A DNA stretch of 36,556 nt from Actinomycetota bacterium (GTDB lineage: Bacteria > Actinomycetota > Acidimicrobiia > IMCC26256 > JACPCJ01). Both the position numbers and the translations under genes were made by a program. The notes beneath the pieces are model-generated. The model saw only the letters and a program-made list of their open reading frames with translations. It made no database searches and was not told where the DNA came from. This document shows, one piece after another, positions 1,275-17,923 of the stretch (position 1 is the first letter of the stretch; each line of letters opens with the position of its first letter). The stretch covers positions 1 through 36,556 of the forward strand of contig JACPCJ010000066.1 of assembly GCA_016179865.1 (NCBI GenBank), in the 5' to 3' direction.

Positions 1275-2546
1275 ATGCCTGGAATCAACGAGGTCCTGGA
1301 ACGCCTGGTCACCGAGCCGGAGTTCCGGACTGCCATCGCCCATAACCCGAAGGCCGCCCTGGCGGGATACGCACTTTCGGCCGACGACCTCGACGTGCTG
1401 GCTTCGGAGCTGAGCACCGACGCCGGCGGCAACGGACCGGTGGAGGCGCGGACGAGCAAGGGCGCCATGCTCGGGCTCCTGTCGGGCCTCACTGAGGGCG
1501 CTGGTCCTGACGCCACCGACTTCGTCGACACCGACGGCGACGGCATCACCGACGCCAACGAGACCACCTTCTACGGCACCGATCCGCTCGACCCCGACTC
1601 CGACGGCGACGGCCTGAGCGACAGCGAGGAGGTTCACCAGCACGGGACCGACCCCCTCGACTACGACACCGACGGCGACAAGGAGAGCGACGGCAAGGAA
1701 GTCGTGCTGTTCGGTACCGACCCGTTGGCCAAGAACGTGTGGGTGGACCACGACCTCGACGGTGAACCCGACGTCTACGAGGTGCTTCACGGGACGGACC
1801 CGCATGACGCCGATACCGATGACGACGGGCTCAGTGATTTCGACGAACTCCACAAGCACCCCACCGATCCGAACAACCCCGACACCGATGGCGATGGCGT
1901 GTGGGACCGGTGGGAGCTCAAGGTGGGCACCAATCCCAACAAGGTCGATACCGACGGTGACGGCTGGTCCGACTACCTCGAACACGACGCCGGGACTGGG
2001 GCCGATCCGAACGCCCAGCCCGAGGGTGGCGACTACGACGGCGACGGCTGGAGTGACGCCAAGGAGTTTCAGGAAGGGACCGATCCCCTCGACCCGGCGA
2101 GCCACCCGGGCCCGGCGAACTGGATCGACGTCGACGCCGCGAACGCTGACGAGTCGGACCCGGGGAGTGTTCCCGTTGACGCCGGAGCGGACGCCGGTGG
2201 AGACGGTGCTCAGCCCAGCCTGTCAGTGCCCTCCGAACCGGACCACCCGGGGGAGGCCGTTCTCGGCGTGGGGCCCTCACCCTTCGAGCCCGAGACGCCC
2301 GAGGTCCCCGAGGATCTGACCCCGCTCGACCCGGTGGCGACCGGACACATCACCCCCGAGGACGGCATCGGGATCGAGCTCATCGACGCCGGCGACGGCG
2401 CTTTCGGCGACGCCGACTTCCAGGGGTCAGTTCCCGATCAAGACGGAATCGACACGAGCGAGATCGACGAGGCGGCCCAGGTCGCCCGCGATCCCAGTCT
2501 GCCGACCGGCGATCTCGACCCCGACGACGCATCGAGGAGCACCTGA
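1275..2546 (+). CDS. Leader-TSP3 protein 1: LigA/NHLP-like N-terminal domain with calcium-binding TSP3 repeats
   Basis: The protein is 423 aa. The ATG follows a strong AAGGAGG site (1261-1267) at 7 bases. Residues 2-45 are a helical domain ([15 protein letters not shown], then [20 protein letters not shown]) resembling the LigA-like/Os1348 NHLP-clan leader families. Next comes the junction [20 protein letters not shown] shared with four paralogues here. Residues ~75-280 hold about eight DxDxDGxxDxxE calcium loops alternating with GTDP turns, the thrombospondin type 3 pattern. The tail is acidic and Pro-rich, with [10 protein letters not shown] echoed in paralogue 4. There is no Sec signal or membrane segment, although TSP3 proteins are normally extracellular, so export by another route is implied. 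A SHOCT-domain gene follows 5 bases after the stop. The function is unknown. Confidence 0.9.
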
Positions 2547-2551
2547 GCGAA

Positions 2552-2839
2552 GTGGCGGCGTTCGTGCCGGGCCTCACCTTCCGCAGCTACCACTCAGCCT
2601 CGAACCCACAGAATGACTTCGCCATCGACTACGAGGCCGGGGCGACCCTCGACGCGGCCGCGCTTCCCGACGAACTTCGGGCCCAGGTGATGCAGGGCGC
2701 GCACGTCGGAGCGTCGACAGGCCCGCGGACCGCGGATCCGTCGGAGCGCCTGCGGGAACTGGCCGCGATGCGGGATCAGGGTCTCATCACCGCCGAGGAC
2801 TTCGAGGCCAAGAAGGCCGAGATCCTCCGAGATCTCTAG
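2552..2839 (+). CDS. SHOCT domain-containing small protein
   Basis: The GTG start lies 5 bases after the stop of leader-TSP3 gene 1, which suggests cotranscription. The 95-aa product ends in a typical SHOCT motif: RLRELAAMRDQGLITAEDFE followed by AKKAEILRDL. SHOCT is a short C-terminal helical module of bacterial proteins, thought to mediate oligomerisation or anchoring. The first 60 residues (FVPGLTFRSYHSASNPQNDF and onward) are not recognised. The TAG stop overlaps the stop codon of the convergent nucleotidyltransferase gene by two bases. Its role beside a TSP3 protein is unknown. Confidence 0.75.
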   Translation: MAAFVPGLTFRSYHSASNPQNDFAIDYEAGATLDAAALPDELRAQVMQGAHVGASTGPRTADPSERLRELAAMRDQGLITAEDFEAKKAEILRDL

Positions 2840-3525
2840 CGATCGTGGTCGCCGCGGATCTGGCGAAGCTCCTCGATGACCGGCAGGTCCTTGGAGCGTC
2901 CGAGGGCCTCCTTGGACGCGATCAGGTCGTCGATCCCCGCGACGAAGACGGTTATGCCGAACAGGGCGTGGGCCTCGGCTCGCTTCCGCTGGGCTTCGTA
3001 CCCGCGGGCGGCCGCTGTCGATATCACGACGTCGACAGGGCCAGCCGTCGTCGGGAATGACCAGGCCTCCGCTTCTTGAAAGGCGGCCGGCTCGCGGTGG
3101 CTGGTTTCAAACTCCCAGAGGTCGCCCGGCTGCATCGGAACGCGATCGGCCGGGATGTGCACCGCGGCCTCGAGGTCGTCCAGGGCGAGCACCATCCGAT
3201 CGAGGTTCTCGGGTGCCGGCCGCGGCAGGAGGTCGATGTCGGCCGTCGGGCGGCTCGACCCATGGACCAGCGCCGCGACCCCGCCGACGAGCACGAACTC
3301 AACACCCTGGGCGTCGAGGGCCGCGAAGAGGCCTTCGGTGTCAAGGGCCTCGAGTTCGGAACTCCGGCCGAAGTCACCACGCGAGCGTTCTCCCCGACTC
3401 CGCTTCGCCTCTCGCGTCAGCCTTGTCAGACTGTCGTTCTGTCGAAGGCGCTGCTCGGGTGTCAGGCGCCGCTGCGCCAGTTGCTGCGCCTTCCAGATCG
3501 CCTCGTGGTCGGTCACCCGGCGCAC
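2836..3525 (-). CDS. Nucleotidyltransferase-fold protein (AbiEii/MNT-like)
   Basis: The protein is 229 aa with a GTG start. The central motif VGGVAALVHGSSRPTADIDL is the nucleotidyltransferase signature, Gly-Gly followed by a DxD pair of metal-binding aspartates, as in AbiEii/MNT toxin-antitoxin nucleotidyltransferases and related DUF proteins. The N-terminal ~60 residues are basic and helical (QRLRQNDSLTRLTREAKRSR). The C-terminal part includes PVDVVISTAAARGYEAQRKR and IDDLIASKEALGRSKD, typical of the family. It lies just downstream of a Phd/PIN pair on the same strand (56-base gap), so it may belong to a defence or toxin-antitoxin cluster. Its own antitoxin partner is not obvious. Its activity (nucleotide transfer to RNA or protein) is inferred only from the family. 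Confidence 0.75.
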   Translation of the reverse strand: MRRVTDHEAIWKAQQLAQRRLTPEQRLRQNDSLTRLTREAKRSRGERSRGDFGRSSELEALDTEGLFAALDAQGVEFVLVGGVAALVHGSSRPTADIDLLPRPAPENLDRMVLALDDLEAAVHIPADRVPMQPGDLWEFETSHREPAAFQEAEAWSFPTTAGPVDVVISTAAARGYEAQRKRAEAHALFGITVFVAGIDDLIASKEALGRSKDLPVIEELRQIRGDHDR

Positions 3526-3581
3526 GCCCGAAGGCTATCTGCGAGGTCGTGGGCTGGCGGTCGGTGGTGGCGTGTGGGCCG

Positions 3582-3971
3582 TTACCCGAGGGGTTCGAGC
3601 GGGATGCCGAGTGCGGATGCCGCGCCCTTCATGCGGCTGTCGTAGGTGGCCAGCGAGACCTTGACCCGCCTCGATCGGAGAAATTCGACCGACGCCAGGT
3701 GGATGGCATCCAACGTCCGCATCGGGACCGGAAACGGCTCCAGTGCTCGCTCCAGTACGGGCGGGGCGAGCTCGAGCAGCGACAGGCGGTCGAGAAGCTC
3801 GCGAGCGGGTTCGCCGTGCGACTCCCACACCCCACGCCCATGGAGGCGTACCACGGTCTCGTATTCGGTGAGCCGGCTGGAGACGAGGCGCTCGTCCCAC
3901 AGAGCGGCGGGGGGTCGGCGATCCTCGGCCAAGAGCTGGGCGAGGACGACCGAGGTGTCGAGGTAGATCAC
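3582..3971 (-). CDS. VapC-like PIN-domain toxin
   Basis: The protein is 129 aa with an N-terminal MIYLDTSVVLAQLL, which supplies the first catalytic Asp. A conserved Glu follows in RLTEYETVVR, then RTLDAIHLAS (Asp) and SLATYDSRM (terminal Asp). This acidic set binds Mg2+ in PIN ribonucleases, and the length is normal for VapC. The ATG overlaps the stop of the upstream antitoxin gene by 4 bases, the usual translational coupling of these pairs. It probably cleaves tRNA or other RNA when freed from its antitoxin; the target cannot be told from sequence. Transcription should start at the palindromic operator at 4265-4288. Confidence 0.88.
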   Translation of the reverse strand: MIYLDTSVVLAQLLAEDRRPPAALWDERLVSSRLTEYETVVRLHGRGVWESHGEPARELLDRLSLLELAPPVLERALEPFPVPMRTLDAIHLASVEFLRSRRVKVSLATYDSRMKGAASALGIPLEPLG

Positions 3972-4258
3972 CGGTCGGCCCGGTCCTCCTCCAGCTCGGC
4001 CAGCACCTCGCTGAGGGGCGCGACACCTGCCGGAGAAGGAACAGGGCCCGTCGCCGCCAGGGGAGGAGTGAGGTACCCACGGCGCATGGCGTCGGCGAGG
4101 ACGGCGTCGCCCAGACCCTCGGCCCGGCTCGGATGCGGCGGGCCGAGTTCGGCCACGACCCGGTCCCGGTCGGATATCAGGACGGTCTCGCCGGCGGCGG
4201 CGATGCGCACGTACTCACTCAGACGGTTCTTCAATACCCGGAGGCCGACCGTTCGCAC
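3968..4258 (-). CDS. Phd/YefM-like antitoxin for the PIN toxin
   Basis: The protein is 96 aa. The N-terminus VGLRVLKNRLSEYVRIAAAG, then ETVLISDRDRVVAEL, is the Phd/YefM (type II antitoxin) DNA-binding fold, and the acidic C-terminal part (LSEVLAELEEDRADR) would wrap the toxin. The GTG start is chosen because the family's conserved N-terminus begins there. A perfect palindrome lies 6 bases upstream and includes TACATT as a possible -10 element, so the transcript may be leaderless and autoregulated. The stop overlaps the toxin start (ATGA). Confidence 0.85.
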   Translation of the reverse strand: MRTVGLRVLKNRLSEYVRIAAAGETVLISDRDRVVAELGPPHPSRAEGLGDAVLADAMRRGYLTPPLAATGPVPSPAGVAPLSEVLAELEEDRADR

Positions 4259-4264
4259 CTGCTC

Positions 4265-4288
4265 AATGTAGCTTCAAGAAGCTACATT
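4265..4288. promoter_or_regulatory. Palindromic operator/promoter of the Phd-PIN pair
   Basis: The arms AATGTAGCTTC (4265-4275) and GAAGCTACATT (4278-4288) are perfect complements with an AA spacer. On the minus strand TACATT ends 6 bases before the antitoxin GTG, which fits a -10 element with a leaderless transcript. The position fits autoregulation by the antitoxin or the toxin-antitoxin complex. Confidence 0.75.
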
Positions 4289-4325
4289 CTACAAGGGGAA
4301 GAATGCCGGGGCGGAGCCCAGGAAT

Positions 4326-4342
4326 TGAGTCACGCGTACTCA
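4326..4342. promoter_or_regulatory. Family box 2: palindromic box before leader-TSP3 gene 2
   Basis: TGAGTCACGCGTACTCA has perfect 5-base outer arms (TGAGT/ACTCA) and matches the other two boxes at both ends and at the GCGT core. It ends 34 bases before the ATG at 4377, the same spacing as box 3 before gene 4. It sits 37 bases from the divergent Phd-PIN operator, so the two promoters share this gap. Confidence 0.55.
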
Positions 4343-4376
4343 CTCGCTTGGTCTCGACTTCGTGTTGACTGGCCTC

Positions 4377-5864
4377 ATGGCTGCGATCGACGAAGTCCTC
4401 GAGCGTTTCGTCAACGAACCCGCCTTCAGGGACGCGGTAGCGGCCGACCCGGAATCGGCGCTCGACGGCTACGAGCTGTCGGCCGACGACCTCGAGCTGT
4501 TGGCGTCACAGTTCTCACGTGACGCCGGCGGACGGGGCGGCGTCGAGCGGCGCCTGACCAAGGCCGGGCTTTCGGGGCTCCTCTCGCAGGCGGCCGAGGA
4601 CGGCGCCGGCTTGGCCGATTTCGACGGCGACGGCCTGTCCGACGAGAACGAGCTCCTGCTCTACGGGACCGACCCCGCCGACGCCGACAGCGACGACGAC
4701 CTGCTGAGTGACGGCGAGGAGGTCCAGATCTGGGGAACCGACCCCAACCTCGCCGACACCGATGGGGACGGGCTGGCCGACGGGCCCGAGATCCAGAATT
4801 TCTACCCGTCTGACCCGTTGGACCCGAACGAGGACGGGAGCTTCGGGGGTTCGGTCACCGATACCGACGGCGACGGGTTCAGCGACTGGGCCGAGGAGAA
4901 GATCTACGGCACCGACCCCAACCTCGCCGACACCGACGGTGACGGCGCACAGGACCTCGTGGAGATCGTCCGGGGAACCGACCCCCACGACACCGACAGC
5001 GACGACGACGGCCTCAACGACCACCAAGAACTCCAAGGCAACTCTGAGAGCGACCCACTCAACCCCGACAGCGACGGCGACGGGTACGGCGACGGCCACG
5101 AGGTCAAGTACGGGACCAGCCCCGGAGACGCCGCCGACTTCCCCGACGCCCTGAAGGACAGCGACGGCGACGGTCTCACCAACGTCGACGAGGTCGACCA
5201 GCATGGGACCGACCCCCACGACGCCGACAGCGACAACGACAAGCTGAGCGATGCCGACGAGGTCCTCGTACACGGCACGGACCCGAACGCCGGCGACACC
5301 GACGGTGACGGGGTCCACGACGAGTACGAGCTCACCCACGAGCTTGATCCGCTGAACGAGGACACCGACGGCGACGGGTTCGTGGACGGGGCCGAGTTCC
5401 ACTTCGGGACCGACCCCCACGACGCCGGTGAGTCACCCGCGCCCGGGCCCGCCAACCCGTTCCCGTTCCTCGCCGACGGCGAACAGCCGGGCGGCGGCGA
5501 CGCGATCAGCCCAGACGACGTCGGTCACGCCACCGAACTCCCCGAGAAGGTCTCCGACGCCCCCGACGCGCATGGGCCCGACCTCCTCCATCCCGGCGAG
5601 GCCACCGACCCCGCGGGTGCGGCGGGGCTGGCACCACCCCCGCCGCTCGTCGATGTCGTCGACCCCGCCGACATGGGTATCGAATCCGTCACTGCCGAGC
5701 CGCAACTCGACGCCATCGAGCCTGAGGACGCCATCGCTCCTGCGCCGCCGCTGGACGACTCGGGCCTCGACGAGGCGAGCGCCGTCGGCTACGGCCCCAA
5801 CATCGACGACGCCGGCCTCGACGAGGCGAGCGCCGTCGCCGACAACCCCCGCGACGGCGTGTAA
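4377..5864 (+). CDS. Leader-TSP3 protein 2: LigA/NHLP-like N-terminal domain with TSP3 repeats
   Basis: The protein is 495 aa. The ATG at 4377 is preferred over an upstream GTG because it gives the family N-terminus (MAAIDEVLERFVNEPAFR) and the same box-to-start distance as gene 4; no clear ribosome site is seen. Residues 2-45 are the leader-like helical domain, followed by DAGGRGGVERRLTKAGLSGL. About eleven DxDxDGxxDxxE calcium loops span residues ~80-350. The acidic, Pro-rich tail ends with two near-identical units (DDSGLDEASAV and DDAGLDEASAV) and NPRDGV. The last unit and 3' flank are duplicated at the end of gene 3. No signal peptide or membrane segment is visible. Gene 3 follows after 139 bases without a family box, so the two may be cotranscribed. 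Confidence 0.9.
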   Translation: MAAIDEVLERFVNEPAFRDAVAADPESALDGYELSADDLELLASQFSRDAGGRGGVERRLTKAGLSGLLSQAAEDGAGLADFDGDGLSDENELLLYGTDPADADSDDDLLSDGEEVQIWGTDPNLADTDGDGLADGPEIQNFYPSDPLDPNEDGSFGGSVTDTDGDGFSDWAEEKIYGTDPNLADTDGDGAQDLVEIVRGTDPHDTDSDDDGLNDHQELQGNSESDPLNPDSDGDGYGDGHEVKYGTSPGDAADFPDALKDSDGDGLTNVDEVDQHGTDPHDADSDNDKLSDADEVLVHGTDPNAGDTDGDGVHDEYELTHELDPLNEDTDGDGFVDGAEFHFGTDPHDAGESPAPGPANPFPFLADGEQPGGGDAISPDDVGHATELPEKVSDAPDAHGPDLLHPGEATDPAGAAGLAPPPPLVDVVDPADMGIESVTAEPQLDAIEPEDAIAPAPPLDDSGLDEASAVGYGPNIDDAGLDEASAVADNPRDGV

Positions 5865-5936
5865 CGAGCCGCGCTTTGTGTCATGAAACGTCGCTCGGCA
5901 GCATCTGATGACAGGAAGCGGCGCAGACAGGCGGAT
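5808..5936 (+). repeat. Duplicated 3' segment, copy A (end of gene 2 and its flank)
   Basis: This 129-base segment aligns without gaps to 8043-8171. It covers the codons for GLDEASAV...PRDG, the TAA stop and ~70 bases of non-coding flank, including the shared stretches GCCGCGCTTTGTGTCA and CAGCATCTGATGAC. In this copy TGTCAT and ATGACA can pair around the flank. Conservation of non-coding bases points to segmental duplication or a retained 3' element. Confidence 0.8.
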
Positions 5937-6003
5937 GAAAACCCGTTCCCCCTCGACGTGGCCGACTCCGAAGCGAACCCACGAGAGATGTAGAGGACTC
6001 GCC

Positions 6004-8099
6004 ATGGCCAGAACCGAACCTGCTCCCGGCATCGACGCCGTTCTCGAACGGCTGGTCACCGAGCCCGGGTTCCGCGACGCCCTCATGACCGACCCCACGG
6101 CCGCACTCGCCGGGTACGCCCTGTCCGCCGACGACCTCGAACTGCTGGCATCGCAGCTCTCCGACGACGCCGGAGCGGGCGGCTCCGTCGAGAAACGCAC
6201 GACCAAGGCCGGGCTCGTCGGCCTCCTCGGATCGATGTTCGCCACCGCCAAGGACACCGACGGCGACGGGTGGTCCGACGTCTTCGAGAACGCCCAAGGG
6301 ATGGATCCGGACGACCCGCACAGCGACACTGATACTGACGGGCTCAGCGACGCAGAAGAATTCAAGCTCGGAACCAACCCCGTCGTCACCGATACCGACG
6401 GCGACCTCCTGACCGACGGCGAAGAGGTGCACGACACGAACACCCTCCCGCTGAAGGCCGATACCGACGGCGACGGCCTGATCGACGGCCTGGAAGTCAA
6501 AGTCTTCGACACGAGCCCGAACCTCGGCGACACCGACGGCGACGGGCTGAAGGACGGCGAGGAGGTTCTCCTCGGCACCGATCCGAAGTTCCACGGGGCC
6601 GACACGGACGGCGACGGCCTCGGCGACGGTGTCGAGGTCAAGGCCGGAACCGACCCGCTCACGCCCGACCCCGCGCCTCCCGGCGACACGGCGTGGGGGT
6701 ACGTCGGCACCGTGGGCGAGACCCTGGCCGATCAGGACACCGACGGCGACGGCCTGAACGACTACGAGGAACTCGTCCTCGGGACCAACCCCAACATCGC
6801 CGACACCGACCACGACGGCATCAACGACGCCTACGAAACCCTCCGCGGCGACACCGATCCCCTCGTACCGGCGGACGACGACGGCGACGGGCTGAGCAAC
6901 AAGGACGAGCTGATCCAGGGGACCGACCCCAAGGACGAGGACACCGACGGGGACGGATTGTTCGATGGCAAGGAGGTCCACGATTACGGGACCGACCCCC
7001 TCCTCAAGGACACCGACGGGGACGGCTGGAACGACGGCGCCGAGGTCCTGTTCCTCAAGAGCGATCCTGGAGCCGCCGACAGCGACGGCGACGGCATCAG
7101 CAACGAAATCGAGAACTTCATTGGCACCGATCCGTTCGATTCCGACAGCGACGACGACGGATTGACCGACGGGTTCGAGCTGAAGACCGGAAGCGACCCC
7201 AGCGAGCCCGACCCCGTCAACGACCTCTATCAGGTCCAAGACGCCGACGGCGACGGGCTCGGGTATCTCGAGGAGTCGGCCCTTGGCACATCCGACGCCG
7301 ACTCCGACTCGGACGACGACGGGCCCCTCGACGGCGAGGCGTACGTGCTGCGCACCAGCCCGACCAACTCCGACACCGACGGGGACGGGCTCAACGACTA
7401 TGAGGAGCCGTCCGAGCACAAGAGCGATCCCGGCGACGCCGACACCGACGGGGACGGCCTCAACGACGGCCTCGAGATCGCCGACGGCGCCGACCCCAAC
7501 GCGCCGGACAGCGACGGCGACGGCCTCTTCGACGGCGAGGAGCACTGGCTCCACAAGACGAGCCCGGCCCTCACCGACAGCGACGGCGACGGCCTCGCCG
7601 ACAAGTGGGAAGTGGATCACGGGACGCTCCCCAACGACGCCGACAGCGACGGCGACGGGTTCAGTGACCTGGTCGAGACGCTGATCGCCAAGACCGACCC
7701 CCTCGACCCGAACAGCCACCCCGAGACCTCGCTCGAGGAGAGCCTGGGCGCCTCGAGCGCCGCCAAGCCCCCACCCTCGACACCGGCATCGACCCGGGAG
7801 CGGTTCCGGAGTCGGTCACCGAGGTTGTGGGCACCGTGGACCCCGGCGATGTGCCGGAGGCGGTCGCCGGGGCCGCCGACCCCGACTACCTCGGTTCCCT
7901 CGGCGACAGCGACGGCGACGGCTTCAGCGACCTCGAGGAGCTGCAGGGCGGGAGCGACCCCGACAACCCCGACAGCGTCCCGTTCAAGACCGATCCCGCC
8001 CCTCTCCCGGCCTCCGTGCCCAACGACGACTCCGGCATCGACGACTCCGGCCTCGACGAGGCGAGCGCCGTCACCGACAGCCCCCGCGACGGCCTCTAA
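6004..8099 (+). CDS. Leader-TSP3 protein 3: longest paralogue, with an apparent frameshift
   Basis: The ATG at 6004 gives the family N-terminus ([20 protein letters not shown]), then DAGAGGSVEKRTTKAGLVGL. About twenty-one DxDxDGxxDxxE calcium loops follow, the most of the four TSP3 paralogues. The frame used from 6004 loses sense after about 7770, where the coding pattern moves to another frame containing DSDGDGFSDLEE and the family tail DDSGLDEASAV...PRDGL with a stop at 8099. One missing base in the C run at 7768-7772 would restore a single 698-aa product. It could be a sequencing or assembly error, a real mutation, or less likely programmed slippage. There is no signal peptide. AmrS follows 112 bases downstream on the same strand. 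Confidence 0.85.
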
Positions 8100-8171
8100 C
8101 GCGCCGCGCTTTGTGTCAGGAGAGGTCGCTCAGCAGCATCTGATGACGGGAAGGGGCGCGGGCGGGCGGTG
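8043..8171 (+). repeat. Duplicated 3' segment, copy B (end of gene 3 and its flank)
   Basis: Gap-free partner of 5808-5936, covering the last codons, the stop and ~70 bases of flank. The flank runs up to a possible AmrS promoter (TACCGT at 8173-8178). Confidence 0.8.
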
Positions 8172-8211
8172 TTACCGTGAAGGACGACGTCTCGTGTGAG
8201 GTGAGCGTCTG

Positions 8212-9357
<1,146 letters not shown>

Positions 9358-9385
9358 CCGAATTTGGTTTTGTTTCTCACACCAT
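9358..9385 (+). repeat. 28-base dispersed repeat, single-arm copy
   Basis: It begins CCGAATTTGGTTTTG and ends TTTCTCACACCAT. It matches 17871-17898 with one mismatch, but lacks the pairing right arm found there. It fills most of the gap between amrS and the Memo-AMMECR1 gene. The AT-rich sequence stands out against the surrounding GC-rich DNA. Confidence 0.7.
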
Positions 9386-9406
9386 GACGCGGTAGGGCCA
9401 CCAAGA

Positions 9407-10771
9407 ATGTCGAGCGCCGCCACCCGTCCCCCCGCCGTCGCCGGCTTCTTCTACCCCGGCAACGCCGACGAGCTTGCCTCCGAGGTCGACCGCTACCTCG
9501 GCGGTGCCCCCGATCACGGGCTCACGCCGAAGGCGATCATCGCCCCCCACGCCGGCTACCGATACTCGGCGGCCGTGGCGGCTTCCGCGTACGCGGGGCT
9601 GAAACGGATGGCGGGCCAGGTGCGGCGAGTCGTGCTCTTGGGCCCCGCCCACCGCGTCCCGGTCGACGGGCTGGCGGTGCCCGCGGTCGACGAGTTCGAG
9701 ACGCCACTCGGCACCGTCCCAGTCGACACCGACGGGCGGACCGCCGTGGCGCACCTGCCTCACGTCGCGGTCGACGACCTGCCCCACCAACCCGAGCACA
9801 GCCTGGAGGTGCACCTGCCTTTCCTCCAGCGCTTGTTCCCGGCGGGCTTCTCGCTGCTGCCGTTCGCCGTCGGGCGGGTGAGCCCCCATGAGGTCGCCGA
9901 CGTCATCGAGCGCTGCTGGGGCGGCGAGGAGACCCTCGTCGTCGTCAGCTCCGACCTGAGCCACTACCACGACTACGACACCGCCCGACGCCTCGACGCT
10001 GAGACGACGCGCGCCATCGAGGGTCTGCGGGCCGAGAACCTTCGGGGCGACAGCGCCTGCGGTGGGCGCCCCGTCGCCGCGCTCCTGCTCGTGGCCCGCC
10101 GGAGGGGGATGCGGGTCGTCACCCTCGACGTCCGCAACTCGGGCGACACCCAAGGAGCCAAGGACCGGGTGGTGGGCTATGGCTCGTGGGCCTTTGTCGA
10201 GGGCGACAGCGAACCGCTCGACGAGGCGGAGGGCTGCCAACTCGTCGACCTGGCCCGGGAGACGGTTGAAGCCGTCGCCAACGGCGACGGGCAGGACCGG
10301 CCGGCCCCGGAAGACCTCGGAACGAGGCTCGGACGGCACCAGGCTGCCTTCGTCACACTCAAGCAGAACGGCCTCTTGCGCGGATGCGTGGGAGGTGTCG
10401 AGGCCCTCCATCCCGTCGCCGTGGCGGTGATGCAAGCGGCGCGCAACGCCGCCAGCGCCGACCCCCGCTTCCCGCCCGTCACCCCTGCCGAGCTGGCGCT
10501 GATCACGACCTCGGTGGCGGTCCTGTCACCGCTCGAGCGACTCACCCTGACCGTCGAGGCCGAGCTGCTTGCGCTCCTGCGCCCCGGCGTGGACGGGCTG
10601 GTGCTCACCGAGGGCACGTCGGCGCGCGGGGTCTTCCTCCCCCAGGTATGGGACGACCTCACCCAACCGGCCGACTTCCTGACCCGCCTGAAGCTGAAGG
10701 CCGGGCTTCCCGCCGATCACTGGAGCCCCACCCTCACCGCCCACCGGTTCACGGTGCAGCACTTCGCCTGA
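9407..10771 (+). CDS. AmmeMemoRadiSam proteins B and A fused: Memo domain plus AMMECR1 domain
   Basis: The protein is 454 aa. Residues ~8-265 are a Memo-like domain (PAVAGFFYPGNADELASEV, APHAGYRYS, GPAHRVP, EHSLEVHLPFLQ, SSDLSHYHDYD), which has the fold of the LigB class of extradiol dioxygenases; its His residues line the presumed metal site. Residues ~275-454 are AMMECR1-like (AAFVTLKQNGLLRGCVGGVE, DPRFPPVTPAEL, FLPQVWDDL). The two are often separate genes, so this is a B-A fusion. With AmrS upstream it completes the AmmeMemoRadiSam set. The reaction is unknown. The gene converges on the membrane protein gene with a gap of only 10 bases and no clear terminator. Confidence 0.92.
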   Translation: MSSAATRPPAVAGFFYPGNADELASEVDRYLGGAPDHGLTPKAIIAPHAGYRYSAAVAASAYAGLKRMAGQVRRVVLLGPAHRVPVDGLAVPAVDEFETPLGTVPVDTDGRTAVAHLPHVAVDDLPHQPEHSLEVHLPFLQRLFPAGFSLLPFAVGRVSPHEVADVIERCWGGEETLVVVSSDLSHYHDYDTARRLDAETTRAIEGLRAENLRGDSACGGRPVAALLLVARRRGMRVVTLDVRNSGDTQGAKDRVVGYGSWAFVEGDSEPLDEAEGCQLVDLARETVEAVANGDGQDRPAPEDLGTRLGRHQAAFVTLKQNGLLRGCVGGVEALHPVAVAVMQAARNAASADPRFPPVTPAELALITTSVAVLSPLERLTLTVEAELLALLRPGVDGLVLTEGTSARGVFLPQVWDDLTQPADFLTRLKLKAGLPADHWSPTLTAHRFTVQHFA

Positions 10772-10781
10772 CGGGCGAGCC

Positions 10782-12593
10782 CTACTCCACCGTCCACGGC
10801 GCCGACGCCCCCGGCCGGCGCGGGGGCGTCGGATCCAGATCGACCCGCCACGTCCGCCCGTCGACCACCAGCTTCCCCACGCCATTGACGAGGTCGAGCT
10901 TGAACGCGGGGTCGCACCGGCACTCGCGGCCACAGCACGCACCGGCGTCGCAGGCGGAGGAGCGCTGCATCTTGGCGTCGACGCTGATGTTGTGCTCGAC
11001 GTAGGCCTCGATCTCGGCCGTGACCCGATCGGTGGTCGCCCAAGCCGACGCGGGCACTCGTGTGCCGGCCCCGATCACGACCTCGTTGCGGATGTCTATC
11101 TGGAGGGAGTCACCGTCGACGGGCCGGGCATCCCGTCCGGTCCCCCTGGTCGCCGCCTCCTGCCTCGGGCGGTTCGGGTGTTCATGGTCGGAGGGCTGCT
11201 GGGGCAGGTGACCGGCCTCGACCTGTTGGAAGTACTGGAGACCACCCTCGAGGCCGACGCTGGCGCGCCCGACGGCGGGGGCCTGCACCGGGCAGGCGTT
11301 CCCCGGATCGGCGTTGGTGCACTCGTGTCCCGGCAGGATGTCGACGTCGCTCAGGCCCTCGCACGCGTACCGGTGCCGATGGTCAGGGCACTCGCTCTCG
11401 AGCCGGGCCCTGAGCACGTGGAGTTCTTGCCAGTCGATGCTCGACGACGGGTCGAACGGTTCGTCGAAGGGTTCGACGCCGCTGCGGTTGTCAGCGTCAG
11501 AAATCTCACCGCGACCTGGCGGCCGGTCCTCGCCGGCGGCCTCTCGACCGGGAGCGTCGCCGAGCCCTTGCATCCACTCGAGGGCTCCCGAGGGGCCGTT
11601 CCGGGCTCCGGCCTTGCCCCACACGTCAAGACCTGACCCGTTGAGGTGGTTGAGGGGGATCCGGAGCCGCCCGCCCGGCCCTTCCACCGCGGGGTCGTCC
11701 TGCCGTCCCTGCACGGCGAACGCCGCCCGCTCGACGGTCATGGTGAGGCTCAGCACGTACACGCAACACTCGTGCCCCGCGGGCTCACGGAGAACCGTCC
11801 GCTTGCCGTCCGCTTCCCAGTACGCCGCCCAGTCGCAGAAGTCTCCGACGAGGATCGGGACCTCCGGATCACCGGGACGGCGTCGCCACCAGAGCAGCAG
11901 CCCGACCAGCCCGCCCCCGGCGACGATCAGTGCGATGACGATGCCAACGGGGAATCCGCCCTCGTCGGCTTCATCCACGAGAGGCTCGTCGGGCGCGTCC
12001 TTGGGCGGTTGTGGTGCCGGAGCGGGTTCCGCCTCTGGCTCGCCAGCTTCTCCCGCGTCCGCCTTCACCGTGATCGTCGGTGAGACGTCGCAGCTCTTGG
12101 GGTCGCCCTCGGCCGGGGTGTTGAAGGCTGCGCCCTGGATCGTCTTCGTTGCGGCCAGCGTCTGGTCCACGTCGAAGATCACCGTGCGGCCTTCGACGTC
12201 GACCTCTACACCAGACGGGACGATCTCGCCGCTAGCGGGGTCGACCTCTCCTTCGCGTCTGGCGCCGTCGTGGATCTCGAGCAGGAACTGGCGTTCGCTG
12301 CCGTCCGCCTCGACCTTCCGCACGAGGATGGCCCACGAGAACTGACCCTGGATGATCGCTTCGATGTCCTCGGCGACGGTGACCTCGATGAGGATGCGCC
12401 CCTCGTCGCCGCCTTCCGAGACCTTCACTGACGTGACGTCGCCGGCGGTGCGGTCAGGGAGGGTGTCGCTCGCTTCACAGTCGACGGCGTCGCCGCCTTT
12501 GTCGTCGACCTGGTTCTCGGCTGCCGCCGCCGGGCCACCTACCAGAACGATCCCCACGACAAGCCCGGCACCCCGTCGTGCCCATGCCCGCAT
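10782..12593 (-). CDS. Unrecognised membrane-anchored, Cys-rich protein
   Basis: The protein is 603 aa and I do not recognise its family. Residues 1-25 look like a signal peptide (LVVGIVLVGGPAAAAEN). Residues ~26-180 are probably beta-rich and extracellular. A Pro/Glu linker (~183-212) precedes one membrane segment (~214-236, FPVGIVIALIVAGGGLVGLL) and then WWRRRP, so the remaining ~365 residues should be cytoplasmic. That part contains ILVGDFCDWAAYW, HECCVYVLSLTMTVERAAF, His/Cys-rich CPDHRHRYACEGLSDVDILP, and a near-terminal Cys cluster (SACDAGACCGRECRCDP) that could bind metal. It lies between the Memo-AMMECR1 gene and leader-TSP3 gene 4 and is divergent from the latter. A sensor or scaffold serving this locus is possible but unproven. 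Confidence 0.75.
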   Translation of the reverse strand: MRAWARRGAGLVVGIVLVGGPAAAAENQVDDKGGDAVDCEASDTLPDRTAGDVTSVKVSEGGDEGRILIEVTVAEDIEAIIQGQFSWAILVRKVEADGSERQFLLEIHDGARREGEVDPASGEIVPSGVEVDVEGRTVIFDVDQTLAATKTIQGAAFNTPAEGDPKSCDVSPTITVKADAGEAGEPEAEPAPAPQPPKDAPDEPLVDEADEGGFPVGIVIALIVAGGGLVGLLLWWRRRPGDPEVPILVGDFCDWAAYWEADGKRTVLREPAGHECCVYVLSLTMTVERAAFAVQGRQDDPAVEGPGGRLRIPLNHLNGSGLDVWGKAGARNGPSGALEWMQGLGDAPGREAAGEDRPPGRGEISDADNRSGVEPFDEPFDPSSSIDWQELHVLRARLESECPDHRHRYACEGLSDVDILPGHECTNADPGNACPVQAPAVGRASVGLEGGLQYFQQVEAGHLPQQPSDHEHPNRPRQEAATRGTGRDARPVDGDSLQIDIRNEVVIGAGTRVPASAWATTDRVTAEIEAYVEHNISVDAKMQRSSACDAGACCGRECRCDPAFKLDLVNGVGKLVVDGRTWRVDLDPTPPRRPGASAPWTVE

Positions 12594-12715
12594 GATCCGA
12601 ACCTCCCGACGGGCGAGACGCTACGCCACCCGTGGCACTTCTGCTCATGGGCCGCCGTGTGGGGCTGTGCGGGAGAACTTTGAGGGAGAACGTGACCTTT
12701 TGTCCGAACCAGGAA

Positions 12716-12732
12716 TGAGTACGGCGTGCTCA
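12716..12732. promoter_or_regulatory. Family box 3: near-palindrome before leader-TSP3 gene 4
   Basis: TGAGTACGGCGTGCTCA is identical to box 1, with GG following in both. It ends 34 bases before the ATG at 12767, as box 2 does for gene 2. It lies in the 173-base gap shared with the divergent membrane-protein gene, which could therefore be co-regulated. Confidence 0.6.
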
Positions 12733-12766
12733 GGCGGGGCCTCGGCGTCGATGGTTGACTACGACC

Positions 12767-14266
12767 ATGGCGAGTATCGATGACGTCCTTGAACGGCTGG
12801 TGGCCGACTCCGATTTCCGCGAGCAGCTGACGCGTGACCCGAAGGAGGCGCTGGCGGGGTACACGCTGAGCGCGGACGACCTCGACCTGCTCGTGTCCGA
12901 GCTGTCGGCGGACGCCGGCGAGGCGGGGGCCGTGGAAGGCCGCGTGACCAAGGCGGGCCTCGCGGGTCTGTTCTCCAGTCTCTTCGCCGGCGGCGGCGGT
13001 GCCCCGAGTGTGATCCAAGGCGTCGAAGTGGCGAGCGACTCGATCGACACCGACGGTGACTTCCTGAGCGACGCCGACGAGCTGGCCGCGGGCACTGACC
13101 CGCAGAACCCAGATACCGACGGCGACGGCCTTCCGGATGGGTGGGAGGTCAAGGGTGTGGAGAGTGATCCCCTGGCTCCGGACACCGACGGCGATGGGAT
13201 CAGCGACTACGACGAGGTTGCCGGGAAGACCGACCCGCTCGACGCCGACACGGACGACGACGACCTCTCGGACGGCGAAGAAAAGGCGCTCGGCACCGAT
13301 CCCACGAATGAGGACACCGACGGCGACGGCGATCCGGATTGGGCGGAGGTGAAGTGGGACCACACCGATCCCCTGAACCCCGACACCGACGGCGACGGCG
13401 ACTCGGACGCCGAGGAGGTCGTGGCCGGCAGTGACCCGAACAACCAGTGGAGCAACCTGGACGACCTCGACGGCGACAAGCTGTCCAACGCCAAGGAGGC
13501 CGAGCTCGGAACCGACCCGAACAACAAGGACACCGACGGCGACGGGCTGTCGGACTACGAGGAGCAGTGGTTCGCCGACCCCCTGAACCCCGACTCGGAC
13601 GACGACGAGTTGCTCGACGGCGAGGAGAAGGCGCTCGGCACGTGGGGCATGGATGCCGACAGCGACGACGACGGTGTGATTGACGGGTGGGAGGTGAAGC
13701 TCGGCACCGACCCGCTCAACGCCGACACCGACGGCGACGGCCTGAGCGACCTCGACGAGCTGCAGTGGGGCAGCGCCACGAGCCCCCTCGACGCCGACAG
13801 CGACGACGACGGCGTGTCGGACGGGGTCGAGGCGTTCCTCAATGACGCGGCAGGCAAGATCGACGTCACCGACTCGCTTGGTGGCGACCCCTCGCCGCCC
13901 GTTGACCCCGATCAATTCTCCGACCTCGACCTGGGCATCGAACTCATTGATCCCGCCGACGAGGGCGTTCCCGCCCCCCCGCTCAACGTCGACCCCGACA
14001 CGTTCGACGACGTGTCGGAGGCGCTCGAGCACTCGGGCGAGAAGCTCGGCGACCCACCGCTTCCGCAGGACGGCGACGACGGCCAGGGTGATTCCGCCCC
14101 CCCGCTGAACGTCGATCCCGACACGTTCGACAACGTGTCGGAGGCCGTGGGCGGCCAGGACGAGCCCGCTCCGCCCCCGCTCAACGTCGACCCCGACACG
14201 TTCGAGAACGTCGGTCAGCTCCTCACCAACGCCGACGGCGAGGGGGACGGCGACGGGGACGACTGA
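12767..14266 (+). CDS. Leader-TSP3 protein 4: LigA/NHLP-like N-terminal domain, TSP3 repeats, triplicated tail motif
   Basis: The protein is 499 aa. The ATG at 12767 is chosen from family alignment (MASIDDVLERLVADSDFR) and box spacing; an in-frame TTG 12 bases upstream is the alternative. The leader-like domain is residues 2-45, then DAGEAGAVEGRVTKAGLAGL. About twelve calcium loops (DTDGDGLSDYEE type) run from ~85 to ~365. The tail contains GIELIDPADEG, shared with gene 1, and three copies of APP(P)LNVDPDTF(D/E)(D/N)V spaced by acidic linkers. There is no signal peptide or membrane segment. The stop is one base from the start of gene 5, so the two are almost certainly cotranscribed from box 3. 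Confidence 0.9.
   Translation: MASIDDVLERLVADSDFREQLTRDPKEALAGYTLSADDLDLLVSELSADAGEAGAVEGRVTKAGLAGLFSSLFAGGGGAPSVIQGVEVASDSIDTDGDFLSDADELAAGTDPQNPDTDGDGLPDGWEVKGVESDPLAPDTDGDGISDYDEVAGKTDPLDADTDDDDLSDGEEKALGTDPTNEDTDGDGDPDWAEVKWDHTDPLNPDTDGDGDSDAEEVVAGSDPNNQWSNLDDLDGDKLSNAKEAELGTDPNNKDTDGDGLSDYEEQWFADPLNPDSDDDELLDGEEKALGTWGMDADSDDDGVIDGWEVKLGTDPLNADTDGDGLSDLDELQWGSATSPLDADSDDDGVSDGVEAFLNDAAGKIDVTDSLGGDPSPPVDPDQFSDLDLGIELIDPADEGVPAPPLNVDPDTFDDVSEALEHSGEKLGDPPLPQDGDDGQGDSAPPLNVDPDTFDNVSEAVGGQDEPAPPPLNVDPDTFENVGQLLTNADGEGDGDGDD
13972..14220 (+). repeat. Three in-frame copies of the APPLNVDPDTF motif in gene 4
   Basis: The unit APPLNVDPDTF(D/E)(D/N)V occurs three times near 13976, 14098 and 14171, separated by variable acidic/Pro linkers. 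The DNA core CCCCCGCTCAACGTCGACCC is nearly identical between copies, suggesting recent internal duplication. Confidence 0.75.
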
Positions 14267-14267
14267 G

Positions 14268-14954
14268 GTGCCGGGACTCGACGACGCCCTGGAACGCCTC
14301 GTCACCGATCGCGAGTTCCGCAGTCAGTTGCGTACGGATCCGAAGGGGGCGCTGGCCGGCTACGACCTCACGGCCTCCGACCTCGACATGCTCGCGGCCC
14401 AGATCAGCGACGACGAGGGAGGCGGCGGGTCAGTCGAGGCGCGGACCTCGAAGGCCGGCTTCGCAGGCCACTTCGCCGATCTCTTCGATGGCGCGCCCTC
14501 CAACACGTGGGAGTCACAAGACGCGTCGTTTCTCGGTGTGCCCGATGGCGAGTCGGTCGACGGATACGACGTCGACGCCGGAGACGGAGACGGAGACGGA
14601 GACGCCGACCAGGTCACCACGACCGTCGAGGAGTTCGACTACAACGAGGCTGGCCGCGTGATCGAGCACGACACGGAGACGGAGTCATCGGACTCCCCGA
14701 ACCTCCTCCACGCAGACGCGACCGTCATGGACTACAACGACCTCGGCGACGTCGTCGAGGAGGAAATCGTCGACCACGAGCCGGGTGTCCTCGACGCCGC
14801 CGATCCCGATCCCGAACCGACGCCCGGGCTGGGCCTCGACGAGCCGGACAACATGCCGTCTCCGCGGACCGAACCCACGTACGAAAGCGAGCTGGAGCCC
14901 ACCAGTGACGACGGCGAGTCGGGTGAGGGTGACGGCAGGGGCGAGGACGACTGA
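14268..14954 (+). CDS. Leader-like protein 5: same N-terminal domain but no TSP3 repeats
   Basis: The protein is 228 aa. The GTG start is one base after the gene 4 stop. The N-terminus (MPGLDDALERLVTDREFRSQ, then GALAGYDLTASDLDMLAAQI) and junction (DDEGGGGSVEARTSKAGFAG) match the four TSP3 paralogues. The TSP3 array is absent; after a short DGDGDGDAD run the rest is acidic and probably disordered (VEEFDYNEAGRVIEHDTETE, VMDYNDLGDVVEEEIVDHE). This shows that the N-terminal domain and junction are an independent module that can carry different cargo. It may be a partner or regulator of protein 4. Confidence 0.85.
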   Translation: MPGLDDALERLVTDREFRSQLRTDPKGALAGYDLTASDLDMLAAQISDDEGGGGSVEARTSKAGFAGHFADLFDGAPSNTWESQDASFLGVPDGESVDGYDVDAGDGDGDGDADQVTTTVEEFDYNEAGRVIEHDTETESSDSPNLLHADATVMDYNDLGDVVEEEIVDHEPGVLDAADPDPEPTPGLGLDEPDNMPSPRTEPTYESELEPTSDDGESGEGDGRGEDD

Positions 14955-17855: not shown

Positions 17856-17870
17856 GGCAAAGCCAGCCCT

Positions 17871-17923
17871 CCGAATTTGGTTTCGTTTCTCACACCATCG
17901 CGTGGAAATGAAACCAAGTTCGG
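17871..17923. terminator. Bidirectional hairpin between convergent genes, containing the dispersed repeat
   Basis: CCGAATTTGGTTTC (17871-17884) pairs with GAAACCAAGTTCGG (17910-17923) with one wobble. The left arm and loop repeat the element at 9358-9385. Its location between two converging stops suggests a two-way terminator. Confidence 0.65.

Follow-up and report, generated by a model that had tools for sequence, protein, structure and literature searches.

Large TSP3-Repeat Proteins Headed by a RiPP-Type Leader Domain, and a Putative RRE-M50 Protease Partner, in an Acidimicrobiia Genome

Introduction

The leaders of ribosomally synthesized and post-translationally modified peptides (RiPPs) are normally seen as handles on short peptides. 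The founding protein of the Os1348 family, which belongs to the NHLP clan of leaders, is a small protein of 85 residues (PMC7726476). NHLP leaders bind the RiPP recognition element (RRE) through helix alpha1 and a linear L(X)4L motif (PMC12455567). The M50 protease EpeP has been proposed both to cut its peptide and to export it (PMC10885120), and removal of the daptide leader is predicted for TfDapP (PMC12338566). The DNA analyzed here is a stretch of 36,556 nucleotides (the window) from the genome of an Actinomycetota bacterium of the Acidimicrobiia (contig JACPCJ010000066.1, assembly GCA_016179865.1). Five of its genes code for proteins that join an N-terminal domain of the Os1348 kind to a further portion of about 150-650 residues, which in four of them contains TSP3-type calcium loops. 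Taking sequence, structural models and analogy together, we favor on balance the reading that this leader and a second motif behind it, the SK box, form a tag by which an RRE-bearing protease binds, and probably cleaves, large proteins. This suggests that a peptide-processing pathway was reused for large proteins.

Five Genes with a Common N-Terminal Domain

Five open reading frames (ORFs) of the + strand, lying within positions 1275-14954 of the window and named here P1 to P5, have their N-terminal ~75-80 residues in common. The first ~80 residues align nearly gap-free, show 52-60% identity to P1 and include 25 invariant columns. A profile built from the five members scores each of them at 134-139 bits and has no match in their own genome beyond P1-P5, so that the similarity is far beyond chance. 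The same profile found nothing beyond the window's genome among 58 genomes of the same order. The encoded proteins range from 228 to about 700 residues. P1 (1275-2546), P2 (4377-5864), P3 (6004 to about 8099) and P4 (12767-14266, a TTG start at 12755 being also possible) carry an array of TSP3 loops behind the leader domain and the SK box. P5 (14268-14954), whose start lies 1 nt past the stop codon of P4, is composed of leader domain, SK box and an acidic tail, and has no TSP3 array. A count by pattern gave 8 loops in P1, 11 in P2, 20 in P3 and 12 in P4, with one stray match in P5, while the stretches recognized by the Pfam model TSP3_bac (PF18884) number 8, 11, 17 and 10, with scores of 126-262 bits for P1-P4 (gathering score 25) and none in P5.

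The arrays are followed by tails that differ in composition. The tail of P1 is acidic, that of P2 contains the motif GLDEASAV twice and that of P4 contains PPLNVDPDTF(D/E)xVxxxx three times. A motif DDSGLDEASAV..PRDG(V/L) is common to P2 and P3 (5700-5864 and 8040-8099), and LGIELID or a similar sequence is common to P1 and P4 (P4 tail 13870-14266). The reading frame of P3 breaks at a CCCCC run at about 7768 (7764-7777) and its tail runs in another frame to 8099; this downstream frame codes for one further TSP3 loop and for a tail ending DSGLDEASAVTDSPRDGL, which matches the P2 tail. The break may reflect either a fault of the assembly or a genuine lesion.

No Sec signal was found in P1-P5. 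Charged helices make up the first 30 residues, and no 17-residue segment over the whole length has a Kyte-Doolittle mean above about 1.2. The cysteine count is zero in P1, P2, P4 and P5. A previous reading made from the letters alone (the sequence-only reading) had recognized five genes with one N-terminal pattern inside 14 kb, four of them fused to 8, 11, ~21 and 12 TSP3 loops, and had seen no Sec signal. All five ORFs are there, with charged N-terminal helices and no hydrophobic segment, and the loop numbers agree closely, with the qualification that P3 is not a single clean frame.

Relationship of the Domain to RiPP Leaders

The model NF038399 (Os1348 family NHLP clan; curated cut-off 40 bits) matches the leader domain of P1-P5 over model positions 3-45, with hmmscan E-values of 6.5e-8 to 1.7e-10 and of 1.3e-7 for P2. 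In hmmscan P5 passes the cut-off with 40.8 bits and the other four score 31.6-38.5; in the genome search P5 (43.2), P4 (42.4) and P3 (40.1) pass it, and P1 (35.8) and P2 (35.5) stay below. PF14407 (Frankia_peptide) and TIGR04509 match below cut-off, and Pfam LigA (PF07746) gave no match to P1-P5 at E <= 1. The resemblance to Os1348 NHLP leaders proposed by the sequence-only reading is thus upheld by NF038399, with three of the five members over cut-off, and the resemblance to LigA proposed with it is not; kinship of the leader to LigA is a distant fold echo at best.

Structure prediction of the N-terminal domain, which had been put forward as a check, returned a small helical domain. The model, computed from 13 related sequences, has confident helices at residues 4-13, 15-23, 25-28 and 36-52 (predicted local distance difference test, pLDDT, about 90); a further helix at 62-74 is predicted with lower certainty. 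Its Foldseek matches in the PDB were mostly SonA, a borosin RiPP precursor, at a weak level (probability 0.38, E 0.65); the LigAB-type dioxygenase DesB was also matched weakly. As judged by profile and predicted fold, the N-terminal domain of P1-P5 is leader-like. The leader found no match in plasmids and phages, and a mobile-element origin was rejected on that ground.

The SK Box and Its Distribution

The leader is followed by a second invariant motif, [VL][ED]xRx[ST][KR], designated the SK box, whose longer form [VL][ED]xRx[ST][KR][SAG]x[LMIF] occupies residues 56-65. Alignment and pattern search place it, always on the + strand, at 1440-1469 in P1, 4542-4571 in P2 (VERRLTKAGL), 6187-6216 in P3 (VEKRTTKAGL), 12932-12961 in P4 (VEGRVTKAGL) and 14433-14462 in P5 (VEARTSKAGF). 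The chance rate of the pattern is 1 in 10,000 shuffled 85-mers.

A scan of GTDB 220, with one genome per species, found a metagenome-assembled genome (MAG) of the Nitriliruptoraceae (G434) with four leader proteins and a MAG of the Micromonosporaceae with one. Searching NF038399 across 397 genomes of the phylum yielded further leader proteins, among which those of genomes G135, G157 and G239 share the SK box with the window. A search of the class to which G135 belongs added G717, G755 and G792, with leader and SK box. The SK boxes read VEQRTSKSAL in Nitriliruptoraceae, LEIRESRSSL in G135 and LDPRLSKSSL in G239. Eight genomes have leader, SK box and the protease described below: that of the window (G000), G434, G239, G135, G157, G717, G755 and G792. 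All 15 leader proteins of these genomes contain the SK box, against 0 of 22 other NF038399 leader ORFs, and none was found at other M50 loci in 83,511 residues of called genes. The Micromonosporaceae leader (L013) was not counted as the same system, having no SK box and no protease match in its genome, nor was the degenerate copy of G619.

A Putative RRE-M50 Partner Linked to the Leader Genes

At locus L011 the last of the leader genes is followed by a gene whose product, a large membrane protein, matches M50 and cyclic-nucleotide-binding models weakly. At L051 and L052 the neighbor of the leader gene codes for a zinc-ribbon/FHA/M50 protein. These two proteases are 32% and 36% identical to that of L011, and all three have an HExxH and N-P...DGY core. 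The search profile built from them (A3) finds a homologue in the window's genome (contig C111, 1414-2652; E 1.5e-106). G157, which was left out of the query, also has the protease gene, directly upstream of its leader gene. The A3 protease was present in 5/5 genomes with leader and SK box and in 0/15 comparison genomes, the latter being genomes with other NF038399 leaders, the Micromonosporaceae genome lacking the SK box, and relatives. In G717, G755 and G792 the FHA-M50 gene is directly beside the leader gene, on the same strand (3/3).

The end of contig C111 is identical to the first 34 nt of the window, and the ORF of an AAA-ATPase/LuxR regulator stays open across the join. On the basis of this overlap the protease gene of the window's genome (L095:1237-4548) is placed about 4.5 kb upstream of P1, the P genes thus having a linked RRE-bearing processing enzyme as RiPP precursors do. 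This protease of RiPP type lends strong, though indirect, support to the suggestion of the sequence-only reading that modification or export may proceed through the leader. The C-terminal part of the regulator, with a GerE match, occupies positions 2-1150 of the window (+ strand), and its N-terminal part is on C111. An AAA-LuxR-like gene is also found beside the Nitriliruptoraceae leader genes. Both in the window's genome and in Nitriliruptoraceae the protease is followed by a 71-residue Cys-rich (zinc-ribbon-like) protein, with 51/71 positions identical. Cys-rich proteins of ~70 residues ending PRP(Q/D)P(V/L)..PELD accompany RRE-M50 genes in many genomes, whether leader proteins are present or not (L095:4564-4776, L050:4703-4915, L131:10014-10229, L133:5204-5410, L140:9531-9740).

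The protease of the window's genome aligns with nearly the whole model of the daptide intramembrane metalloprotease (NF041824, E 6.3e-30) and matches the YydH/LiaK epipeptide metalloprotease (NF058609, E 5.1e-11). By these scores the partner is a relative, and not a member, of the daptide and YydH-LiaK M50 maturases. Its zinc-site motifs are intact (HEAGH at 265, NLNPLMTLDG at 355) and hydrophobic segments are predicted. The copy of L052 has a PqqD match (E 2.3e-4). A model of the RRE-M50 region of the own-genome copy (17 sequences, pLDDT 86) shows strands at 23-29, 33-39 and 48-52, then helices at 53-60, 68-79 and 84-96, and then a membrane bundle. In a Foldseek search of the PDB its top match was SpoIVFB:pro-sigmaK (probability 1.00), together with PqqD (5sxy, probability 1.00) and the TbiB1-leader complex (5v1u, probability 0.98, TMt 0.60). 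We read this as a PqqD-like RRE joined to a site-2-type M50 protease of the RiPP-maturase kind. A cyclic-nucleotide-binding-like domain lies C-terminal to the M50 region; some copies carry an FHA domain. PADLOC gave no match for the M50 protein, P2 or P4, and a defense-system reading was rejected on that ground.

Cargo of the Tagged Proteins

The fusion of leader and TSP3 repeats was seen in one genome only, that of the window, and TSP3_bac repeats were found in none of the four other SK-box genomes tested. The cargo consists of acidic tails in Nitriliruptoraceae, an M23 peptidase in G135 and G717, CHAP and NlpC/P60 domains within a 1871-residue protein in G755, and a Gly-rich tail in G239. 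The leader genes of G157 and G792 run off their contigs, and cargo was read from complete genes only. The sequence-only reading had taken leader plus TSP3 for a distinct protein class and had proposed a survey of genomes for the pair and its neighbors. The architecture is real and the survey did find a neighbor of the leader, the RRE-M50 gene, but the pair itself was seen in one genome only and the other SK-box genomes, where the leader gene is whole, carry the tails and hydrolases just mentioned. The conserved unit is leader, SK box and RRE-M50 partner, TSP3 being the cargo in the window's lineage.

Proposed Mechanism

According to our proposal P1-P5 would be large substrates with an N-terminal RiPP-type module made of a folded helical leader (residues ~1-53), the SK box (56-65) and a short helix. 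Their partner would be a membrane protein with a cytosolic PqqD-like RRE, an intramembrane M50 domain (HEAGH, NLNPxxxxDG) and a cyclic-nucleotide-binding-like domain. By binding both the SK box and the surface of the leader, the RRE would recruit the tagged protein to the membrane; by analogy with characterized leaders, binding of leader and SK box is likely. The place of the cut by the M50 domain would be close to the SK-box helix or the Gly/Ala-rich stretch behind it, and analogy with peptide maturases makes such cleavage fairly probable. The freed TSP3 protein would come to lie on the cell surface or beyond it, an extracellular fate to which the same kind of comparison gives an even chance, and Ca2+ would fold the repeats there. 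The AAA-LuxR regulator and the 71-residue Cys-rich protein would be part of the cassette in two lineages.

In a broader and more tentative proposal, to which we give slightly less than even odds, RiPP recognition would have turned into a general N-terminal tag for adhesin-like TSP3 proteins and wall hydrolases in several actinobacterial classes, with a dedicated RRE-site-2 protease in charge of their processing and perhaps of their Sec-independent delivery to the surface. If true, a handle and an RRE-protease would act on proteins of 40-200 kDa, providing a new route for Gram-positive-type surface proteins and wall hydrolases without Sec signal, and a natural portable tag-protease pair would become available for protein engineering. 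With the SK box the idea becomes open to direct test, and further cargo can be looked for by a simple search.

Weighing of the Alternatives

Several observations weigh against the tag reading. Export is its weakest step: a chain of 40-75 kDa is an unlikely direct load for an intramembrane protease, and no evident exporter was found in the window or the rest of its contig. The NHLM transporter model (TIGR03796) is not over cut-off in the window's genome, which is 70% complete, and among the eight genomes passes it only in G239; an NHLM exporter was rejected by its score in the window's genome. The genome also encodes a further TSP3 protein (L096:7979-8656) that lacks both a leader and a signal peptide. 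The protease is tied to the window by contig overlap alone, in a 70%-complete MAG. Its scores are far below the equivalog cut-offs (104.6 versus 300 bits for NF041824, 42.7 versus 225 for NF058609), and in Pfam the own-genome copy had no PqqD or M50 match. The Foldseek matches of the leader and protease models all had E-values above 0.001. Confidence in the leader model is moderate overall (pLDDT 73), with values of 50-63 in the SK-box segment. M50 proteins of the partner family occur at E <= 1e-30 in 27 of the 397 genomes of the phylum, 22 of which have no detectable leader of the SK-box type; the family therefore has other partners. The cassette is also older and broader than the leader proteins, because many of these M50 loci carry a similar small Cys-rich protein. 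Furthermore, one and the same group served both to define the SK-box pattern and to count it, and the later genomes were found by a profile that includes it, so that the weight rests on the contrast with other groups and on the later finding of the protease.

The top structural match of the partner, SpoIVFB:pro-sigmaK, would also suit a signaling role, in which the RRE-M50 protein is the site-2 protease of a stress circuit, the leader proteins are cytoplasmic regulators or ligands cut to change expression, and TSP3 senses Ca2+ inside the cell. The cyclic-nucleotide-binding-like and FHA domains fused to the protease and the LuxR regulator that adjoins its locus point the same way. So does the region L130:8154-9295, where an extracytoplasmic function (ECF)-sigma-like gene (read by eye), divergent from an M50 gene, precedes the gene of a small protein in which one segment is weakly leader-like (E 6e-5); use of the RRE-M50 family in signaling is possible at that locus. 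However, site-2 proteases normally act on membrane proteins and P1-P5 are free of hydrophobic segments, the best sequence matches of the protease are RiPP maturases, and the wall-hydrolase cargo of other genomes fits export better than signaling, which we consider unlikely. A much smaller probability is given to P1-P5 being unusual RiPP precursors, from which a small modified peptide would be cut at the SK-box region or the C-terminus, the TSP3 array serving as carrier or tether. Leader family and M50 type are indeed those of RiPP pathways, short motifs are repeated in the tails of P2, P3 and P4, and TglG and TmoG, both of them M50 proteases, take modified residues off the C-terminus of carrier peptides (PMC10885120). 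Nevertheless, the leader is followed by a TSP3 array or an acidic tail where a RiPP precursor has its short modified core, four of the five proteins lack cysteine and the C-termini differ among members. Neither the window nor L095 has a recognizable gene for a YcaO, lanthipeptide or comparable modification enzyme, and the sole radical SAM gene belongs to an AmmeMemoRadiSam set that is not conserved at other leader loci. A RiPP-core reading was rejected in view of the large Cys-free passengers.

That set comprises a radical SAM gene (8212-9357) and a Memo-AMMECR1 fusion gene (9407-10771), both inside the cluster between P3 and P4 and on its strand. One may imagine that they modify the tagged proteins, Memo being LigB-like and the leader LigA-like, but the surroundings of the leader genes in L011, L012, L049-L052 and L163-L166 do not contain them (gene lists read by eye). 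The AmmeMemoRadiSam set is widespread in bacteria without such leaders. It was rejected as modifier, not being kept at other leader loci, and we attach hardly any probability to this role. Loading of tagged proteins as payloads into a contractile injection system, with the tag as loading signal, would agree with wall hydrolases among the cargo and with the Baseplate_J genes present in 5/5 SK-box genomes of the class of G135, near the leader gene in each. Yet Baseplate_J has no match in G000 (70% complete), G434 and G239, three genomes that share this leader and protease; the link is therefore lineage-specific, the candidate was rejected and we hold it to be highly improbable. Finally, P1-P5 might be ordinary repeat proteins of the cytoplasm whose N-terminal segment is plain filler or a stray duplicate of a domain that has no partner, considering that the leader-TSP3 fusion occurs in a single genome and that another TSP3 protein of this genome also lacks an export signal. 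The segment is, however, kept across unrelated cargo contexts and tracks a linked protease, which leaves filler with next to no likelihood.

Other Features of the Region

The segment between P1 and P2 (2836-4258) contains minus-strand genes for nucleotidyltransferase-like, PIN and Phd/YefM-like proteins, possibly including a toxin-antitoxin pair. A ~54-nt imperfect palindrome, AATTTGGTTTC...GAAACCAAATT, is found at 17870-17923 of the window and again, in frame, in the RRE-M50 gene (L095:3250-3303); it is a dispersed small repeat element. On contig C139 of the same genome, L096:4630-5175 codes for a protein with an IniB-like N-terminus (NF038175, 29.5 bits, below cut-off), beside an Hsp70-family gene (5876-7663) and the leader-less TSP3 protein. 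The IniB N-terminal domain also looks leader-like.

Comparison with Known Systems

Through its NF038399 match the leader of P1-P5 is related to the Os1348 family (NF038399), Franean1_4349 Frankia_peptide (PF14407) and the NHLP-related RiPP peptide (TIGR04509); it too is predicted to be a small helical domain and occurs close to processing genes of RiPP type. It differs in heading proteins of 228 to about 700 residues and in the added SK box, absent from the 22 other members surveyed. The helical-bundle leader of SonA (PDB 7ltc; PMC8429565) is the best fold match of the leader model; the match is weak (E 0.65) and the partner of SonA is an N-methyltransferase. The way a folded helical leader and a linear motif would be recognized jointly by an RRE recalls MprE7/MprC (PMC12455567). 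That system has a YcaO cyclodehydratase as its enzyme and L(X)4L as its motif; in the present case an M50 protease carries the RRE, the SK box stands in place of L(X)4L and binding is predicted. The partner shares the HExxH and N-P...DG motifs with the daptide (NF041824) and YydH/LiaK (EpeP, NF058609) proteases, for which leader removal, perhaps with export, is predicted; it differs from them by its RRE and its cyclic-nucleotide-binding-like or FHA domain, and its proposed substrates are large proteins instead of peptides. Finally, the tandem DxDxDGxxD calcium-type loops of P1-P4 resemble those of myxobacterial TSP3 proteins (PF18884; CglD, MtsC, MtsD), the CglD and MtsD models matching below cut-off. 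Those models are annotated as a lipoprotein or as cell-cohesion proteins, while P1-P4 start with a RiPP-type leader and lack a signal peptide. Set beside these systems, leader, SK box and RRE-M50 protein are a variant form of RiPP-type leader processing with interchangeable large cargo.

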